A DNA stretch of 64,000 nt from Peristeroidobacter soli (GTDB taxonomy: Bacteria; Pseudomonadota; Gammaproteobacteria; Steroidobacterales; Steroidobacteraceae), in assembly GCF_004138485.1 (NCBI RefSeq), contig NZ_RYEV01000003.1:1426001-1490000 (forward strand), written 5' to 3'. The notes under the pieces were generated by a model. The model did not search any database, was not told where the DNA came from, and saw nothing but the letters and a program-made list of their open reading frames with translations. Position numbers and translations under genes: made by a program. How positions within the stretch are numbered: position 1 is the first letter of the stretch; the number at the start of each line of letters is the position of its first letter. Below are positions 5,349-17,141 of the stretch, piece after piece.

Positions 5349-7863
<2,515 letters not shown>

Positions 7864-7874
<11 letters not shown>

Positions 7875-8289
7875 GCAGGCGCAGGGCGAACAGCACCCAC
7901 ATCACATACAGCACGATGCTGCTGGCGAAGAACAACTGGAAGCGTCGGATGACGACGTTGCTCGTGAGGTGCACATACGTGTGCGCCGCACGCAGCACGA
8001 CGTAGCCCCAGGCGCACGCCAGCAGCAACACCGTCGTGAGCTGTGTGATCGCGAGAAAGCCGCACAGCGCATAGAACAGCACGGGCACTTCGAACAGATT
8101 GCGGAAGTGGTCGGAGGCCGCCACGTTCTGCATCGTCTCGTGCATCTGCCGGGCGGTCGCCACCTGCTGCGGGTGAATGCGCCGGGCGCGCATCTCGGCG
8201 ATGCGGTCTCGATACAGCTTGATGAAAACGAGACCGGTGAGCAGGGCGAGGGCGGTGGGTGGTAACAGAATCGCGTGCTGGATCTGCAT
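7864..8289 (-). CDS. MAPEG-family membrane protein
   Basis: 141 residues from the ATG at 8289. GGAGGGAGCC sits directly upstream and favours this start over the in-frame ATG at 8301. Four membrane helices with the conserved loop RNLFEVPVLFYALC identify a MAPEG (eicosanoid and glutathione metabolism) protein. Bacterial members are usually annotated as glutathione S-transferase-like or simply MAPEG proteins, and the substrate is unknown. It lies 25 bp downstream of the fumarase gene on the same strand and is probably co-transcribed with it. Its 3' end overlaps glgP in convergent orientation. Confidence 0.8.
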
Positions 8290-8314
8290 GGCTCCCTCCA
8301 CCGCCTTTGGTTCG

Positions 8315-9841
8315 TTACATCACTTTGACGGGGATGCCGGCGATGCGCTTCTTCCATTCCGCCGGGCCGGTCTCGTGCACCGACTCGCCGCGGGCATCGA
8401 CGGCGACGGTCACCGGCATGTCCTTCACGTCGAATTCGTAGATCGCTTCCATGCCCAGATCGCCGAACGCGACCACGCGGCTGGCACGAATCGCTTTCGA
8501 GACCAGATACGCCGAGCCGCCGACGGCCATCAGATACGCCGCCTTGTGCTTGCGAATGGATTCGATCGCTTCAGGACCGCGCTCGGACTTGCCGACCATG
8601 GCGATCAGGCCGGTCTTGCCGAGCATCATCTCGGTGAACTTGTCCATGCGCGTCGCGGTCGTGGGGCCGGCGGGGCCGACCACTTCGCCCTTCACGGGAT
8701 CGACGGGGCCGACGTAATAGATCACGCGGTTCTTGAAATCCAGGCCCGGCGGCAACGGCTCGCCTTTCTCGATCAGCGTGCTCAAACGTTTGTGAGCCGC
8801 GTCGCGACCGGTCAGCATCTTGCCGGACAACAACAAACGCTCGCCCGGTTTCCACGACGCCACGTCCTCGCGCGTGAGCGCATCGAGATTCACTCGACGC
8901 GAATCCGCGGATGCCTGGTAGGTGAGTTTCGGCCACAGTTCCAGATCCGGTGGATCGAGCTTCGCGGGACCTGAGCCGTCGAGCACGAAATGCGCGTGAC
9001 GAGTCGCGGCGCAGTTCGGAATCACCGCGACCGGCAACGACGCGGCGTGCGTCGGATAATGTTTGATCTTCACATCGAGCACGGTGGTGAGGCCGCCGAG
9101 GCCCTGCGCGCCGATGCCGAGCGCGTTGATCTTGTCCATGATCTCCAGGCGCAGCGCTTCGAATTTGTCCTGCGGACCGCGCTCGCGAACTTCATGGATA
9201 TCGATTTCTTCGAACAGGGATTCCTTGGCCATCACCATGGCTTTCTCGGCGGTGCCGCCGATGCCGATGCCGAGCATGCCCGGCGGACACCAGCCCGCGC
9301 CCATCTGCGGCACGGTCTTCACCAGCCAGTCGACGATGGAGTCGGACGGATTCAACATCACCATCTTGGATTTGTTTTCCGAACCGCCGCCCTTGGCCGC
9401 CACCGCGATGTCGAGCGTATCGCCCGGCACGACTTCCATATGAATCACCGCGGGCGTGTTGTCCTTGGTGTTCTTTCTATCGAACAACGGATCGCCGACG
9501 ATGGACGCGCGCAGCGTGTTGTCCGGATGGTTGTAAGCGCGGCGCACGCCTTCGTTGATCATGTCGCTGAGCGACATGGTGGCGTCGGCCCATTGCACGT
9601 TCATGCCCACTTTCACGAACACGGTGACGATGCCGGTATCCTGACAGATCGGGCGATGGCCCTCGGCGCACATGCGCGAATTCACCAGGATCTGTTTGAT
9701 CGCATCCTTCGCCGCCGGGCTTTCCTCGCGCTCGTAGGCGGCCGCCATGGCCTGGATGAAATCGGGGGAGTGGTAATAGGAGATGTACTGCAGGGCGTCG
9801 GCGACGCTCAGGATCACATCGTCTTGCTTGATGGTCGGCAT
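8315..9841 (-). CDS. Class I (iron-sulfur) fumarate hydratase
   Basis: A 508-residue class I fumarase (FumA/FumB type), which interconverts fumarate and malate in the TCA cycle using a labile 4Fe-4S cluster. Cluster-cysteine contexts are visible in HRPICQDTG (about residue 67), GWCPPGMLGIGIGG (about 185) and PNCAATRHAHF (about 275). The C-terminal beta domain contains GPTTATRMDKF and KSERGPEAIESI. It is a single-chain enzyme, not the split alpha/beta form. Because the cluster is oxygen-sensitive, this type is often accompanied by a class II enzyme elsewhere, which cannot be assessed here. Confidence 0.93.
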   Translation of the reverse strand: MPTIKQDDVILSVADALQYISYYHSPDFIQAMAAAYEREESPAAKDAIKQILVNSRMCAEGHRPICQDTGIVTVFVKVGMNVQWADATMSLSDMINEGVRRAYNHPDNTLRASIVGDPLFDRKNTKDNTPAVIHMEVVPGDTLDIAVAAKGGGSENKSKMVMLNPSDSIVDWLVKTVPQMGAGWCPPGMLGIGIGGTAEKAMVMAKESLFEEIDIHEVRERGPQDKFEALRLEIMDKINALGIGAQGLGGLTTVLDVKIKHYPTHAASLPVAVIPNCAATRHAHFVLDGSGPAKLDPPDLELWPKLTYQASADSRRVNLDALTREDVASWKPGERLLLSGKMLTGRDAAHKRLSTLIEKGEPLPPGLDFKNRVIYYVGPVDPVKGEVVGPAGPTTATRMDKFTEMMLGKTGLIAMVGKSERGPEAIESIRKHKAAYLMAVGGSAYLVSKAIRASRVVAFGDLGMEAIYEFDVKDMPVTVAVDARGESVHETGPAEWKKRIAGIPVKVM

Positions 9842-11440: not shown

Positions 11441-12195
11441 CAGGCGCGTTTCTTTCGCAGCTTCCGAGTGAGCTTGGCCTTGGTCGCGGCGACCGTCGGT
11501 TTCGTAACCGCGCGCTTGGGTTTGGGCGGCGCGAAGATACTGCGCTTCTCCGGTTTGGTTTCCGGGGGCGTCTTCTCTTTGTACTCACACAAGTCGAGGA
11601 TCACGCACTCCGGGCACTTCGGTTTGCGTGCGATACACGTGTAGCGTCCGTGCAGGATCAGCCAGTGGTGAGCGTCGTGCGCGAACTCGGGCGGCACGAC
11701 TTTCACCAGATGATCTTCGACCGTGCGCACGTTGTCGCCCGGTGCCAGGCCGGTGCGGTTCGAGACGCGAAAGATATGTGTATCGACGGCGATGGTCGGA
11801 TGGCCGAATGCCGTGTTCAAAATCACGTTCGCGGTCTTGCGGCCGACGCCGGGCAGCGCCTCCAGCGCCTCGCGTGATTCGGGAACCTCGCCGCCGTGCT
11901 GCTCGACCAGGATGCGACAGGTCGCGATCACGTTCTTGGCCTTGGTGTTGAACAGACCGATGGTCTTGATGTACTTCGACAGGCCTTCGACACCGAGGTC
12001 CAGGATGGCTTGCGGCGTGTTCGCATGTTTATACAACTCGCGCGTGGCGAGATTGACGCTCTTGTCGGTGGCCTGCGCCGACAGGATCACCGCGATCAGC
12101 AGCTCGAACGGCTTGGAATATTCCAGCTCGGTGGTCGGCTTGGGATTGGCGGCCTTGAGGCGCTCGAACATCGCGACGATTTTTTTTCGGTTCAT
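11440..12195 (-). CDS. nth: Endonuclease III
   Basis: 251 residues from the ATG at 12195, which overlaps the rnfE stop; the longer frame upstream merely re-reads rnfE. This is a DNA glycosylase/AP lyase that removes oxidised pyrimidines. The helix-hairpin-helix LPGVGRKTANVILN, with the catalytic lysine, lies near residues 113-126. The aspartate in AVDTHIFRVSNR follows near 138, and the 4Fe-4S ligands C-x6-C-x2-C-x5-C in CIARKPKCPECVILDLC near 187-203. About 40 residues of Lys/Pro-rich tail extend past the usual approximately 211-residue length. The position after rnfE is the classical gammaproteobacterial order. Confidence 0.95.
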   Translation of the reverse strand: MNRKKIVAMFERLKAANPKPTTELEYSKPFELLIAVILSAQATDKSVNLATRELYKHANTPQAILDLGVEGLSKYIKTIGLFNTKAKNVIATCRILVEQHGGEVPESREALEALPGVGRKTANVILNTAFGHPTIAVDTHIFRVSNRTGLAPGDNVRTVEDHLVKVVPPEFAHDAHHWLILHGRYTCIARKPKCPECVILDLCEYKEKTPPETKPEKRSIFAPPKPKRAVTKPTVAATKAKLTRKLRKKRA

Positions 12196-12959
12196 GATTT
12201 CGTGGAATGGCGGGCGGCTGTCCAGTTGCGCGCGGCGATCAACAGGCCCAGGGAGATGAAGGCGCCGGGCGGCAGCATCGCGAGCAGGAAGCCCATGTCG
12301 ACGCTGAACACTTTGACTTCGAGCCGGTCCGCCCAATGGCCCAGCAGTGCGCCGGCACCACTGAGCAGCGAGCCGCGGCCGACGAGTTCGCGAGCGAAGC
12401 CCAGCGCCATCAAGGTCAGTGCGATGCCGAGCGCGATGCGCAGGCTGCGGATGAGCGCCATGCCGCGATCTGCGGCTGGTGTTTGTATCTGATCGATGAC
12501 GACGATGTTGACCGCCAGTAACGGCAGGAACACGCCGAACGACGCGCCCAGGTCGTGAAACCAGGCGCGCATGAAGAGCTCAGCGGCGGTGACGAGCCCG
12601 GCCGTGACGAGCAGGCTTGCGGGAAGCACGATGGCGTCGTCGAGCCAGCGACGGATGGTATTGAGCAGCAGCGTCGCCAGAGGAAATATTGCGAGCACCA
12701 GGACGCTGAAGGCGAGCGCTTTGACGACCGTGTCGCTGACCGCGAGCAAGGGGCACAACGCCAGGAGTTGCAGCGTGCTGCTGAACGCGCGGTCACGCAC
12801 TGAAGATGAAGGTGCTTTGCCCGTCGCGCCCGGCGTCACGATGCTGTCGTTAGATGATGGCGTGCCCGTCGCGCCCGGCGTTTCGCTGCTGATGTTGGAC
12901 GATGGCGTGCCGGTCGCGCCCGGCGTGACGATGCTGTCATTGGGTGGCCGCGTGCTCAT
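12192..12959 (-). CDS. rnfE: Electron transport complex subunit RnfE/RsxE (one cluster cysteine missing, repeat-bearing N-terminus)
   Basis: 255 residues, a six-helix membrane subunit paired with RnfA in the Rnf/Rsx complex. ALCPLLAVSDT (about 69-79) retains the first conserved cysteine. The second conserved motif, usually TNC followed by a hydrophobic run, reads LLAVNIVVIDQ, so that cysteine is replaced by isoleucine. The C-terminal AMLPPGAFISLGLLIAARNW is canonical. The first approximately 50 residues are a Ser/Thr/Pro/Gly-rich extension made of three 15-residue repeats (TPGATGTPSSN-type), absent from textbook RnfE. The start codon overlaps the rnfG stop. Confidence 0.88.
   Translation of the reverse strand: MSTRPPNDSIVTPGATGTPSSNISSETPGATGTPSSNDSIVTPGATGKAPSSSVRDRAFSSTLQLLALCPLLAVSDTVVKALAFSVLVLAIFPLATLLLNTIRRWLDDAIVLPASLLVTAGLVTAAELFMRAWFHDLGASFGVFLPLLAVNIVVIDQIQTPAADRGMALIRSLRIALGIALTLMALGFARELVGRGSLLSGAGALLGHWADRLEVKVFSVDMGFLLAMLPPGAFISLGLLIAARNWTAARHSTKS
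12820..12954. repeat. Three tandem 45-bp repeats inside rnfE
   Basis: Three consecutive 45-bp units begin at 12820, 12865 and 12910, each opening with CC(C/G)GTCGCGCCCGGCGT on the plus strand and ending in GGCGTG or CGCGTG. They encode the 15-residue repeats at the RnfE N-terminus and keep the frame. Unit length is a multiple of three, so copy number could change without frameshifting. Confidence 0.9.
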
Positions 12960-13591
12960 CGTGGCTTGCCATCCTGATACAACCGGTCCTCGTTGCCTTG
13001 ATAGAACTCCAGCGTGCGACGCACGGCCTTCACGATGGCTCGCGGCGTGATCGTCGCGCCCGTGAACGCGTCGAAGTCGCCGCCATCCCGGCGCACCGTC
13101 CAGCGTTGCTGTGGCGGCTGGGTCAGTGACAGGCCGCGAAACCTGTCGAGCCAGCCGGCATCGCGATTCTCGAACGCGTCGCCGAGCCCCGGTGTTTCAT
13201 TGTGACGAATGACCTGCACGCCGATCAGCTGACCGCCCGGCGCGATCGCCACCAGCAATTCCAGCGGGCCGCGATAGCCGTCGGGCGCGACGGAGCGAAT
13301 GGCTACGGCCACTGGCAATCCGTCCTTTCGCAGTCGATAGGCAACGACCGGGGCTGCGCCCAATAAATCGGGTGCGGTGACTTCAGTAGTATCGGTGAGC
13401 GGGTCGTTGTCGTAACTCTCCGGAGGGACGAGAGCGTCCAGGTGCTGTTTGATCCACGCCTGTTGATTGTGAGCGATGCGGTCACGGGTGACGTTGGCGA
13501 AGATCACGAGGCCGACCGTGAGCACGACCGCGATGACGACGAGCGCCGCCGTCGGCATCACGATGTTGCGCTTGTCAGCGGGCGTGGCCAT
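12956..13591 (-). CDS. rnfG: Electron transport complex subunit RnfG/RsxG (FMN-binding)
   Basis: 211 residues with one N-terminal membrane helix (about 12-32) and a periplasmic FMN domain. The flavinylation motif FDAFTGATITPRA (about 173-185) supplies the threonine that carries covalent FMN in RnfG/NqrC proteins. The preceding LIGVQVIRHNETPGLGD is the other family signature. The start overlaps rnfD by 17 bp and the stop overlaps the rnfE start. The flavin site appears intact, in contrast to the altered RnfA and RnfE. Confidence 0.93.
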   Translation of the reverse strand: MATPADKRNIVMPTAALVVIAVVLTVGLVIFANVTRDRIAHNQQAWIKQHLDALVPPESYDNDPLTDTTEVTAPDLLGAAPVVAYRLRKDGLPVAVAIRSVAPDGYRGPLELLVAIAPGGQLIGVQVIRHNETPGLGDAFENRDAGWLDRFRGLSLTQPPQQRWTVRRDGGDFDAFTGATITPRAIVKAVRRTLEFYQGNEDRLYQDGKPR

Positions 13592-14612
13592 AGACGCGTG
13601 GAATCGTGTAGCGGTCGATGAGTGGCACCGACAGATTCATCAGCAACACCGCGAAGGCGACCCCGTCGGGATAGCCGCCCCAGGTGCGAATGACGTAGGT
13701 CAGCACGCCGATGCCCGCGCCGTAGATCAACCGGCCGCGATCGCTGGTGGCCGCCGAGGTCGGGTCGGTGGCGATGAAGAATGCGCCCAACAGGCTCGCG
13801 CCGGACGTGAGATGAAAGATCGGACCGGCGTACGCGCCCGGATCGACCATGTACATCAGCGACGCGCAAACGACGATGGCACTGAGCATGGCGACCGGGA
13901 TGTGCCAGCGAATGATGTGCAAGGCGTACAGAACGATGCCGCCGGCCAGTGTCGCCAGATTGATCCATTCCCAGCCGCGTCCGCCGAGCGCACCGAAGAC
14001 CGGCGCCGCCTGGGCCTCGGCCATGGTCATGCCCATCTTCAAATGGGTTCGTAACGCATCGAGTGGCGTGGGCGACGTCACCGCGTCCCAGGTGAGTCGC
14101 GATGGGAGCGAGCCGGTGAGAATGGTTTGCAAGGTCTCGCCGATGGAAAGCCTGGTTTGTTCGATGTCCATGCCTGAAGGCGGCAGCCATTGCAGCAGCT
14201 GCACGGGAAACGAAACCAGCAGCACGGCGTAGCCGACCATCGCGGGATTGAAAGGATTGCGCCCGAGCCCACCATATAAATGTTTCGCCAGCAGAATGGC
14301 GAACGCCGTGCCACTCACCACCAGCCACCACGGCGCGAGTGGCGGCAGGCACAGCGCCAGCAGTACCGCCGTGACAATGGCGCTGCCGTCTTTCAAGAAG
14401 GGCTCGATCGGCTTCTGTCGAAGCCGCAACGCCAGCGCTTCCGTCAGCAGCGCCGTCGCCGCTCCGAGTGCGATCTGCACCAACAAGCCCACGCCGAAGA
14501 ACACGACGTGCAACGCCACCGTCGGCACCAGCGCATATAAAACGATGCGCATGACCCGCCCGACGCTGTCGTGAGCGACTACATGCGGCGCGGGTGCGGT
14601 GGGAAAAGTCAT
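13575..14612 (-). CDS. rnfD: Electron transport complex subunit RnfD/RsxD
   Basis: 345 residues with about nine to ten membrane helices. Conserved stretches are SAIVTAVLLALCLPPLAPWW (about 80-99), KHLYGGLGRNPFNPAMVGYA (about 115) and GGYPDGVAFAVLLMN (about 313). The segment SPTPLDALR near residue 180 corresponds to the (S/A)TPLD motif whose threonine carries FMN in RnfD/NqrB. RnfD forms part of the transmembrane electron and ion path. The ATG overlaps the rnfC stop. Confidence 0.94.
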   Translation of the reverse strand: MTFPTAPAPHVVAHDSVGRVMRIVLYALVPTVALHVVFFGVGLLVQIALGAATALLTEALALRLRQKPIEPFLKDGSAIVTAVLLALCLPPLAPWWLVVSGTAFAILLAKHLYGGLGRNPFNPAMVGYAVLLVSFPVQLLQWLPPSGMDIEQTRLSIGETLQTILTGSLPSRLTWDAVTSPTPLDALRTHLKMGMTMAEAQAAPVFGALGGRGWEWINLATLAGGIVLYALHIIRWHIPVAMLSAIVVCASLMYMVDPGAYAGPIFHLTSGASLLGAFFIATDPTSAATSDRGRLIYGAGIGVLTYVIRTWGGYPDGVAFAVLLMNLSVPLIDRYTIPRVYGHAR

Positions 14613-16072
14613 GTGGAGGAGGGCTCGCCTTTGGGCCGTCGCTTTTCCGCCAGTTTCGCACGATGTTCGGCTTCGAGGCGCGCCAGGCGTTCGTTGCGGG
14701 AGTGGAAGCGGGCGCGGGCGGCGTCGGCGGTGAGGTGAGCGTCGAGCTCGCGAGCGAGCAGGGGCTTGGCCTCACGGAAACGTTCGGCGAGCGGGATCTG
14801 GCTCGGGCACACGTAATCGCAGCAGCCGCATTCGATGCAGTCGAGCAGGCCATGACGTGAGAGTTGCTCGCTGTCGAACGGTTGCAGGTACCAATGCAAT
14901 TGCTGAGGCAGCAGGAACGCGGGGCACGCCTGCGAGCAGTTGCCACAGCGAATGCAGGGCATCTCCGGACCGCGCGGCTGCAGATCGAGCGCGGAGGCGG
15001 CGATGATGCAGTTGGTCGCTTTCACGACCGGCAGATCGTCGTGAGGCAACGAGGTGCCCATCATCGATCCGCCCATGATCAATCGTGACATGCGTTCGGT
15101 GTAGCCACCGCTGTCGGCGATGAGGCTGGAGAACGGTGTGCCGATGCGCGTTTCCCAATTGCCGGCTTCGCTCACGCCGTCGCCCGTGACGGTCACGATG
15201 CGACTCACCAACGGCTGTCCATCGCGAATCCAGCGGGCGATGGCGGCGGCGGTACCGACGTTCTGGCAAACGACGCCGATGTCCGCGGGAAAACCGTCGT
15301 GAGGCACTTCGACGCCGAACACCGTCGCAATCAGTTGTCGCTCGCCACCGGCAGGATAAATGGCCGGCACGACTTTGATTCGAATCCGGGCATCGGCCGC
15401 CTTCTCGATGGCGAGTCGTAACGCGGTCTGCGCTTCCGGAACGTCGTCTTCGATCGCGATCGTGCAGTTCGGCGCGCACAGCGCGTGGAGCAAGGCCCGC
15501 GCCCCGAACACGATGTCGTCGGCGCGCTCGCGCATCAGCATTTCGTCACAACTGATGTAGGGCTCGCACTCAGCGCCATTGAGCAGGAGCTGCGGGCCGT
15601 TCTCGCACAACGAGCTTTCGAGCTTGTTCGCTGTTGGAAACGCCGCGCCACCCAATCCAACGATGCCACCACGCGCGATGTGCTCACACGCTTCGGCGGG
15701 TGATATTTGTTCGAAGGAAACAACGGCCGCGGCATTGTCGAAACGCTCGTCCCGGCCGTCGTTGGCGATCACGATGCTCATCGTCGGCGCGCCGAGGCGA
15801 TGCGGTGCCGGCCTCGGTTCAATGGCAAGCACTTCGCCCGACACGGGCGAGTGCAACCACGCACTGATCCCAGGCGCGGGTTGCGCGATCGGTTGAAACA
15901 TTCGAACGCGATCCGCGGGTTTCACCAGCGGCAGGGCAGGCAGGCCGGAGTGCTGGTCGAGCGGAATCACATAACGCTCGATCAGGCGCGCCGCACGAAC
16001 CGATGCCTTGGTGGAGCGCCGTTTGTGCGCCTCGATGCGCAGACCGCCGGTGAGGAGCTCCGTCGTGGTCAT
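14609..16072 (-). CDS. rnfC: Electron transport complex subunit RnfC/RsxC
   Basis: 487 residues from the ATG at 16072, which overlaps the rnfB stop ([17 protein letters not shown] is the typical RnfC opening). It is the peripheral NADH/ferredoxin-side subunit. The Rossmann/flavin region [17 protein letters not shown] lies near 135-151. Two 4Fe-4S motifs follow near 372 and 411 ([12 protein letters not shown] and [12 protein letters not shown]). The tail of about 50 residues is Arg/Glu-rich and short; many RnfC proteins carry a much longer Ala/Lys-rich C-terminus. Confidence 0.95.
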
Positions 16073-16566
16073 CGTGCGGGCGCCGGCTGCATCACGATGC
16101 AATCGACCGGGCAGGGCGGAATGCACAGCTCACATCCCGTGCAGTCCGCGGCGATCACCGTGTGCATGTAACGAGACGCGCCGACGATGGCATCGACGGG
16201 GCAGGCTTGAATGCACTTGGTGCAACCGATGCAGGACTCTTCTTTGATGAAGGCAACCGCAGGATAGTCGGGGACGACGCCGTATTCCTTGCCGACCGGT
16301 TTGGGCGCCACGCCCATGAGGCTTGCCAGCGCTTGCGCCGTGCGCTCGCCGCCGGGCGGACATTGGTTGATATCGGCTGCGCCTTGCGCAATGGCTTCAG
16401 CATACGGGCGGCAACCCTCGAACGTGCAGCGACGACATTGAGTCTGCGGCAGCAGGGCGTCGATGCGATCGACCAACGCGATCTCCCTGGGCGCGCCGCG
16501 CGTGGCGACAGTCGCCACGCCCGCCAGCGCGGCGAGAATGATGACTGTGAGCAGCGCGGTAATCAT
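16069..16566 (-). CDS. rnfB: Electron transport complex subunit RnfB/RsxB (ferredoxin)
   Basis: 165 residues: one N-terminal membrane helix (about 2-22), then a 4Fe-4S domain with ligands in [17 protein letters not shown] plus CPPGGE (about 42-74). Two ferredoxin-type clusters follow, in [19 protein letters not shown] and [16 protein letters not shown]. All expected cysteines of the gammaproteobacterial RnfB are present, so electron entry should be normal. The start codon overlaps the rnfA stop. Confidence 0.95.
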
Positions 16567-17141
16567 TCCTGAATCAGCCCGGTGAACCCCATGAACGCCA
16601 GCGCCATGATGCCGACACTGACCAGCGCGAGCGGCGCGTCCCGAAACACGCTGGGCACCTCGGCATGCTGTAAACGTTCGTGCATGGCCGCGAACGCCAG
16701 CATCAGAAATCCCAAGGCTGCCGCCATCGCGATGGAGAATGACACGGCGTCGACGATGTTCTGCATCCGTGCGTCCACTATCAGGGCGATGCCGAGGACG
16801 GCGGAGTTGGTGGTCACTAGCAGCGTGAAGCCGGGACGTTGCGGTTGCAGGCGACTGTTGCGTCGGAGCACGAATTCAACCAGCGGCACCACGGCCACGG
16901 CGACCACCACGAATACAAACGTTCGCAGATAGCCGAGCTCATTCGGGTCCAGCAGCCAGTTCGACAGCGCCCAGGTGATGGTGGCGACGGCCGGCACGGC
17001 GAGCAACGATGCGATGGCCAGTCCCTGCGCGCCCTTGAAGGTACTCGTGACGGCCTCGAAAGGCCGCCACGAGGGCATGCGCGTCAGCGCCATCACGTTG
17101 ACCAGGACGGCGCTGAGCAGGATGAGCAAGAGCGCTGACAT
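16563..17141 (-). CDS. rnfA: Electron transport complex subunit RnfA/RsxA (cysteine-free variant)
   Basis: 192 residues with six membrane helices. Family signatures are AVLVNVMAL (about 11), VEFVLRR (about 88), [12 protein letters not shown] (about 109) and the C-terminal [12 protein letters not shown]. In ordinary RnfA the first helix pair contains LGLCPF and the fourth TTNCAVLG; here these read PSWRPF and TTNSAVLG. The whole protein has no cysteine. Those two cysteines, with two from RnfE, normally hold an intramembrane 2Fe-2S cluster, so this subunit cannot ligate it in the known way. It lies 24 bp downstream of metG and begins the overlapping rnf run. Confidence 0.88.

Follow-up and report, generated by a model that had tools for sequence, protein, structure and literature searches.

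An Rnf operon of Steroidobacter that lacks three of the four ligands of the intramembrane iron-sulphur cluster

The stretch of DNA analysed here (the window: 64,000 nucleotides of Peristeroidobacter soli, contig NZ_RYEV01000003.1, positions 1,426,001 to 1,490,000) carries an operon for all six subunits of an Rnf complex in which only one of the four ligands of the intramembrane [2Fe-2S] cluster is left. In Rnf and Nqr complexes this cluster is held by two cysteines from RnfA/NqrE and two from RnfE/NqrD. The loss of the other three is fixed across this genus of soil bacteria, called Steroidobacter in the following, and the six proteins remain under purifying selection, which suggests that the complex was rewired for another job. 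A whole operon kept under selection without these ligands, together with recurrent losses in other lineages, provides natural mutants in which electron transfer is separated from ion pumping and which allow a direct test of what RnfC, RnfD and RnfG alone can do. In the accessible text of the reports found, the membrane cluster is presented as the driver of Na+ pumping and its cysteines as conserved (PMC11889175), or these cysteines are called invariant and the metal site or cofactors strictly conserved (PMC9588780, PMC12174285). A literature search with slight coverage of subscription journals found, in the text available, no description of the loss of cluster cysteines in Rnf.

The window RnfA and RnfE align to the solved Rnf/Nqr chains of A. 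vinelandii (8ahx), A. woodii (9eri), C. tetanomorphum (7zc6) and V. cholerae (7xk3). The canonical set used for comparison is composed of 76 non-Steroidobacter loci, four chosen canonical loci of the same family and E. coli Rsx; the 76 loci were drawn from the best 80 of more than 500 matches to the window RnfA and are not a random sample. Both ligand positions are cysteines in all RnfA (81/81) and all RnfE (65/65) rows of this set. Their equivalents in the window are R26 and S113 of RnfA and C69 and I152 of RnfE, leaving one ligand of four. RnfA has no cysteine at all and C69 is the single one of RnfE. The two RnfA cysteines and the second RnfE cysteine are gone, and RnfE C69 is kept, in each of the 14 Steroidobacter genomes searched, one of which has RnfA and RnfE on two contigs. 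Position 26 of RnfA is arginine in 13 genomes and glutamine in one, position 113 is serine (eight), alanine (two), glycine (two), threonine (one) or proline (one), and a hydrophobic residue replaces the cysteine at RnfE position 152. Because the same three losses are found in all 14 genomes they result neither from chance nor from sequencing error. An earlier interpretation of the window, based on the letters alone (the sequence-only reading), had listed these three ligands as missing and proposed alignment with characterised homologues and a survey of relatives for co-loss of the cysteines; the alignment and the survey, which extends to other lineages (see below), bear it out. With three of four ligands lost, the membrane [2Fe-2S] cluster is very probably absent from Steroidobacter Rnf.

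The sequence-only reading also considered two circumstances that would change this picture, a second rnf or nqr operon with normal cysteines and compensating cysteines at equivalent positions. Neither was found. PF02508 matches only the two window genes in the whole 9.37-Mb genome, which thus has no second Rnf/Nqr pair. At the conservation thresholds applied, and with rows shorter than 75% of the window protein's length dropped, no newly fixed cysteine column exists in any of the six Steroidobacter subunits, nor a newly fixed histidine in RnfA, RnfE, RnfD or RnfG. The only newly fixed histidine is H411 of RnfC, a soluble subunit, and it is present also in 9/75 canonical rows. Compensating cysteine or histidine ligands were therefore rejected, and the option of another ligand set finds no support in Steroidobacter, where Cys26 became predominantly arginine. 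A related possibility is that electrons still cross RnfA/E through another cofactor, held by RnfE C69 together with non-cysteine ligands. The invariance of C69 in the 14 Steroidobacter genomes and in the four rows of g16, from the same family, speaks for it. The arginine at position 26, the hydrophobic residues at position 152, the lack of newly fixed histidines or cysteines in RnfA, RnfE, RnfD and RnfG, and the loss of C69 itself in 3/3 rows of f175/g343 make it very unlikely.

A second functional site of the RnfA/E pair is affected. For Na+ entry in A. woodii the ion pair formed by R67 and E115 of RnfE is important, according to the part of the report available (PMC11889175). The equivalents by alignment are RnfE positions 111 and 159, occupied by V111 and Q159 in the window. 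Arginine is found at position 111 in 65/65 canonical rows versus 4/14 Steroidobacter rows, and an acidic residue at position 159 in 65/65 versus 1/14. Residues near the site are retained in the genus (RnfE L147 and N151 in 14/14, RnfA N112 in 13/14). The same report describes that mutation of the cluster cysteines abolishes ferredoxin-dependent NAD+ reduction and autotrophic growth of A. woodii (PMC11889175). Since those mutants are inactive, Steroidobacter Rnf should be unable to carry out ion-pumping ferredoxin:NAD+ oxidoreduction. A normal ion-pumping complex whose electrons pass directly from RnfB to RnfG, bypassing the missing cluster, would agree with the presence of all six subunits, but the lack of ferredoxin:NAD+ activity of the A. 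woodii variants and the erosion of the ion pair render it extremely unlikely.

Charged residues appear near the former cluster. RnfE position 76 lies seven residues (about two turns) past C69, which in a regular helix would put both on one face. In 65/65 canonical rows it is occupied by S, T, N, G or A. It is aspartate in 14/14 Steroidobacter rows, in 3/3 rows of g43 (another family of the order), in G525 and G414 and in 3/3 f175/g343 rows, and E, D, E and N in the four g16 rows. RnfA position 26, where Steroidobacter has arginine, is aspartate in L246, L247, L241 and L249. One view is that gammaproteobacterial Rnf complexes repeatedly turned from ion-pumping redox loops into one-way electron exporters and that RnfA/E gained a convergent charged centre (Asp76, Cys26 to Arg or Asp), which might perhaps act as a non-redox ion path or as a gate coupled to RnfG movement. 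This view is doubtful. The intact RnfE of L209 (f27) also has Asp76, and L241, L185 and L139 do not have it, which counts against a convergent charge; for the same reason Asp76 was rejected as a strict marker of degeneration. The folds of RnfA and RnfE are kept, as judged from AlphaFold models (pLDDT, the predicted local distance difference test, of 81 and 77, respectively) whose best PDB matches are Rnf and Nqr chains. The fit of the RnfA monomer model is moderate (template modelling score 0.62-0.66 and root-mean-square deviation 5.6-7.8 for the seven best matches), and such monomer models speak to fold kinship rather than to the geometry of the shared site.

Change in Steroidobacter Rnf is concentrated in RnfA/E. 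Among residues whose conservation reaches 95% or more in 21 canonical loci (fragments L112 and L113 being left out for RnfC and RnfD), 65/79 are changed in the genus in RnfA and 41/59 in RnfE, compared to 9/57 in RnfB, 12/83 in RnfC, 9/73 in RnfD and 6/31 in RnfG. Identities computed on profile columns give the same picture. RnfA is the most conserved subunit in 8/8 canonical pairs, with RnfE above RnfC and RnfG, while in Steroidobacter pairs RnfE lies below RnfC and RnfD (13/13) and RnfA below RnfD (13/13) and below RnfC (12/13, with one tie).

The six proteins are nonetheless under purifying selection. The ratio of non-synonymous to synonymous substitution rates (dN/dS) was computed by NG86 on the columns of the family profile; higher values (up to about 0.65 for some RnfE pairs) came from frames taken from stop to stop, which include non-coding residues at the front, and were not used. 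In ten pairs among the five closest genomes dN/dS is 0.08-0.20 for RnfA, 0.11-0.28 for RnfE and 0.06-0.15 for RnfB, RnfC, RnfD and RnfG. In three more distant Steroidobacter pairs, whose dS is near saturation, RnfA and RnfE reach 0.23-0.57. Eight canonical pairs give 0.02-0.23 for RnfA and 0.07-0.31 for RnfE, so that absolute ratios overlap those of Steroidobacter and the difference resides in the rank of RnfA/E among the subunits; no ratio was obtainable for several g16 and canonical pairs. All 27 sequences matched by PF02508 across the 14 genomes are free of internal stops. Open frames and low dN/dS led to rejection of the genes as pseudogenes, and the proteins are still selected, by looser or different rules. 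A decaying operon, in which RnfA/E drift without function and the other genes are to follow, is improbable. It is consistent with the reversed rank of the two subunits, with RnfA and RnfE scores far below their family cut-offs and with the higher ratios of the three distant pairs, but it has to face the uninterrupted frames, ratios well below 1 in close pairs, the strong constraint on RnfB, RnfC, RnfD and RnfG, and the fixation of charged residues (R26, D76) at positions on the side of the former cluster.

Ligand loss is not confined to Steroidobacter. PF02508 was searched in four overlapping sets of genomes and matched 31 of 200 for the family, 176 of 296 for the order, 242 of 369 for the class and 219 of 398 for the phylum. 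Low-scoring matches were inspected rather than every genome, hence no frequency of loss is given. Operons with at least one cluster ligand lost are termed degenerate. In g16 1, 2, 2 and 3 of the four ligands are kept (three in L143, two in L140 and L141), RnfA Cys26 being lost in all four. The three distinct operons of g43 keep two (L181), none and one, G329 being a duplicate of G263. No ligand is left in G655, nor in G525 and G414, each with RnfA and RnfE on two contigs. One of four is kept in G029, in G294 and in each of three f175/g343 genomes, where it is RnfE C152; in the phylum sample at least four other g343 genomes among the matches listed score normally and at least one has no match. 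Where RnfA alone was seen, both cysteines are absent in G621, G501, G770 and G871, while G065 keeps Cys26 and loses Cys113. A low family score is only partly a good proxy for cysteine loss, given that the divergent f148 loci L194 and L195 keep all four cysteines and L196 both those of RnfA.

On a quick tree of RnfD plus RnfG (64 rows), unordered parsimony needs four changes to explain the degenerate state, and the starred branches alone force three. If ligand loss is irreversible, six separate clades are counted by eye: f175/g343, L187, L241, g43, L185, and Steroidobacter with g16 and L139. The placement of L185 and L187, both on long branches, is uncertain.

Some of these lineages also lack another subunit. 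Searched genome-wide, RnfB (TIGR01944) has no match above cut-off in g16 (4/4), g43 (4/4) and g45 (3/3), with G013, G031 and G655 as positive controls; completeness is only 84% for G077, one of the negative genomes, but elsewhere, as in L138, rnfA directly adjoins rnfC. RnfC has no match above cut-off in the three f175/g343 genomes, while seven others are positive. The operon of G294 (L241), which looked as if it had neither RnfB nor RnfC, was not counted as a case of subunit loss: its RnfC is on another contig, and the genome-wide RnfB search covered other genomes. All degenerate operons covered whole contain RnfD and RnfG, several lineages being known only from fragments. In g45 the RnfB-less L238 and L239 keep all four cysteines beside RnfB-bearing sisters (L240, L245). 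This has the look of an intermediate step, with RnfB lost before the ligands, while Steroidobacter lost ligands and kept RnfB; RnfB loss was therefore rejected as the single cause of ligand loss.

The survey yielded several further observations. In L242 and L244 (f125) RnfA has histidine instead of the first cluster cysteine (LGLHPFMG) and keeps the second; judged from RnfA only, these complexes possibly have a three-cysteine-one-histidine cluster. Their RnfB frame runs on into an RnfC-like tail with two 4Fe-4S motifs. L246, L247 and L248 (f175/g343), without RnfC in operon or genome, have Lys/Ala repeats at the RnfB carboxyl terminus, presumably similar to those of the E. coli RsxC carboxyl-terminal tail. 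In L181 opposite-strand genes lie between rnfG and rnfE (7516-9025), assigned by eye to YeeE/DUF395-like frames and a sulphur dioxygenase of metallo-beta-lactamase fold. L249 (G871), from another class of the phylum, codes from position 2343 onward for an RnfA-like protein that lacks the two cluster cysteines; its 4-kb contig carries no further rnf gene.

Purifying selection, the concentration of change in RnfA/E, the recurrence of ligand loss and the absence of RnfB or RnfC in some of the lineages concerned together fit best with a changed job, which was among the options of the sequence-only reading (another electron path, other ligands or a changed function). The reading favoured here, given about an even chance, is that the electron circuit was cut and that its NADH-RnfC-RnfD-RnfG branch survives as a link between NADH and a periplasmic flavin. 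The circuit from ferredoxin through RnfB, the RnfA/E cluster, RnfG, RnfD and RnfC to NAD would be broken at RnfA/E; electrons would no longer flow from RnfB across this pair to RnfG, and redox-driven pumping would be lost. Electrons would still pass between NADH, RnfC with its flavin mononucleotide (FMN) and two 4Fe-4S clusters, RnfD and the periplasmic-side FMN of RnfG, so that Rnf would act as a one-way link from NADH to a putative periplasmic partner. RnfA/E would stay as a membrane scaffold instead of an electron carrier, and selection would keep the complex for its still-working part. In favour of this reading, the RnfB-less lineages with ligand loss, g16 (4/4) and g43 (4/4), keep RnfC, RnfD and RnfG. 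The retained RnfC 4Fe-4S motifs, the ApbE homologues of the window genome and the two-subunit NQR/RNF-like systems in the literature (see below for all three) also count in its favour.

The cofactor motifs of the four other subunits, which the sequence-only reading had described as kept, are so in RnfB, RnfC and RnfG and for the flavin-linking threonine of RnfD, whose motif is otherwise altered. The RnfB iron-sulphur motifs and cysteines are retained in Steroidobacter, with a changed first-cluster loop (R46 and T48 in 14/14 rows, mostly Q and G in canonical ones). Both RnfC 4Fe-4S motifs are present in the window translation, in 13 genus rows and in every degenerate row compared whose RnfC is complete; G294, where RnfC lies elsewhere, is outside this comparison. 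The RnfG flavin threonine is kept in the degenerate rows compared except L139, which has serine; RnfG of L142 is cut by the end of the sequence used for that locus. The RnfD motif of the window reads DAVTSPT: the alanine preceding the flavin threonine in 72/72 canonical rows is proline in 12/13 Steroidobacter rows, and the threonine itself is serine in 4/4 g16 rows. The window genome codes for three homologues of the flavin transferase ApbE, an enzyme that takes serine less well than threonine and for which an A to V change in the flavinylation motif of another protein reduced flavinylation to about half, according to the text accessible (PMC12052999).

Several points weigh against the surviving NADH-to-flavin branch. 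The RnfD FMN may be less well attached, given the A to P change of Steroidobacter and the Thr to Ser change of g16. No gene for a periplasmic partner was seen in the operon. The invariance of RnfE C69 in the genus is left unexplained by a pure scaffold. Up to three of the four ligands persist in g16 and two in L181 of g43, which makes some cofactor possible there. The three f175/g343 genomes lost RnfC and not RnfB; NADH-RnfC cannot be the input in them, and no single mechanism accounts for every lineage. RnfA of G501 and RnfE of G414 each lie in a 10-kb stretch that contains no further rnf gene, and RnfE of G525 is on a different contig from its operon, so that the rule that RnfD and RnfG always stay is limited to whole operons. 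Finally, the RnfB cluster cysteines of Steroidobacter are under strong constraint and are not needed by an NADH-RnfC-RnfD-RnfG branch.

This retention of RnfB is accounted for by the main rival for Steroidobacter, a cytoplasmic Rsx-like reducer in which electrons would pass from NADH through RnfC and RnfB to a soluble partner (SoxR or ferredoxin), with RnfA, RnfD, RnfG and RnfE only as an anchor and the membrane cluster unnecessary. The conservation of the cytoplasmic RnfB and RnfC and the annotation of the E. coli orthologues as a SoxR-reducing system agree with it. RnfD and RnfG are equally conserved, however, and ligands are also lost in lineages without RnfB or without RnfC. It is possible, if unlikely.

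The operon lies on the minus strand of the window in the gene order metG-rnfA-rnfB-rnfC-rnfD-rnfG-rnfE-nth, as read from open reading frames, with metG and nth named by eye from their translations. Its coordinates and key codons are given in the table. NCBIfam subfamily models name the six products RnfA, B, C, D, G and E; RnfB, RnfC, RnfD and RnfG pass the TIGR cut-offs and RnfA and RnfE fail them. Adjacent rnf genes overlap by a few bases; positions, intactness and overlap of the six genes agree with what the sequence-only reading had reported. The nearest named loci, among the best 80 of more than 500 RnfA matches, are from Peristeroidobacter agariperforans and Steroidobacter agaridevorans. 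The amino-terminal extension of rnfE contains a 45-bp tandem repeat (2.8 copies, window 12818-12943) encoding repeated TPGATG peptides; none was seen in RnfE of L108 and L109.

Table. The rnf genes of the window and the codons discussed in the text (aa, amino acids).
Feature	Position	Strand	Basis or remark
rnfA, 192 aa, no Cys	16563..17141	-	TIGR01943 133.6 bits, cut-off 229.3
rnfB, 165 aa, iron-sulphur Cys retained	16069..16566	-	NCBIfam model and alignment
rnfC, both 4Fe-4S motifs retained	14609..16072	-	likely ATG start at 16072; longest frame to 16126
rnfD, 345 aa, flavin-linking Thr182 (14067-14069) retained, TSPT instead of [ST]xAT	13575..14612	-	
rnfG, 211 aa, flavinylation motif DAFTGAT retained, Thr180 (13052-13054)	12956..13591	-	
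rnfE, 255 aa, one of two cluster Cys retained	12192..12959	-	TIGR01948 126.3 bits, cut-off 213.4
RnfA codon 26, Arg; canonical first cluster Cys (81/81 rows)	17064..17066	-	alignment
RnfA codon 113, Ser; canonical second cluster Cys (81/81 rows)	16803..16805	-	alignment
RnfE codon 69, retained cluster Cys, 14/14 in genus	12753..12755	-	alignment
RnfE codon 76, Asp, 14/14 in genus vs 0/65 canonical; present in other degenerate lineages	12732..12734	-	
RnfE codon 111, Val; Arg in 65/65 canonical rows (A. woodii R67, Na+-entry ion pair)	12627..12629	-	
RnfE codon 152, Ile; canonical second cluster Cys (65/65 rows)	12504..12506	-	alignment

The window operon resembles canonical Rnf (8ahx, 9eri, 7zc6 and E. 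coli Rsx) in its six subunits and in the conserved RnfB, RnfC, RnfD and RnfG, and its gene order corresponds to rsxABCDGE-nth of E. coli. It differs from canonical Rnf by the absence of three of the four cluster ligands, by RnfA and RnfE scores under the cut-offs and by the loss of most of the Na+-entry pair. The Na+-NQR has a homologous core with the same four-cysteine site in NqrD/E. It keeps that site, with 4/4 cysteines in the three NQR loci L149-L151 compared to 1/4 in the window. The loss of RnfB proposed as a step in the origin of NQR, in the part of that work available (PMC4014512), is a parallel to the RnfB losses of g16, g43 and g45.

A further comparison is with the two-subunit NQR/RNF-like systems, composed of RnfD- and RnfG-like proteins, for which one-way electron transfer from NAD(P)H to extracytosolic acceptors was proposed (Meheust 2021, PMC8238504; Huang 2024, PMC11334425). 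As far as the accessible text of these two reports goes, a PF00175 NAD domain is fused to their RnfD-like domain, and no more than two subunits are apparent in the gene cluster. A single flavin path from the NAD(P)H side to an extracytosolic FMN protein, proposed there, would be shared with the window complex. The latter has instead a separate RnfC, retained RnfA/E and, in Steroidobacter, a retained RnfB; its RnfD of 345 amino acids is matched end to end by RnfD models, no PF00175 search having been made. The Steroidobacter complex thus falls outside the definition of the two-subunit NQR/RNF-like systems.

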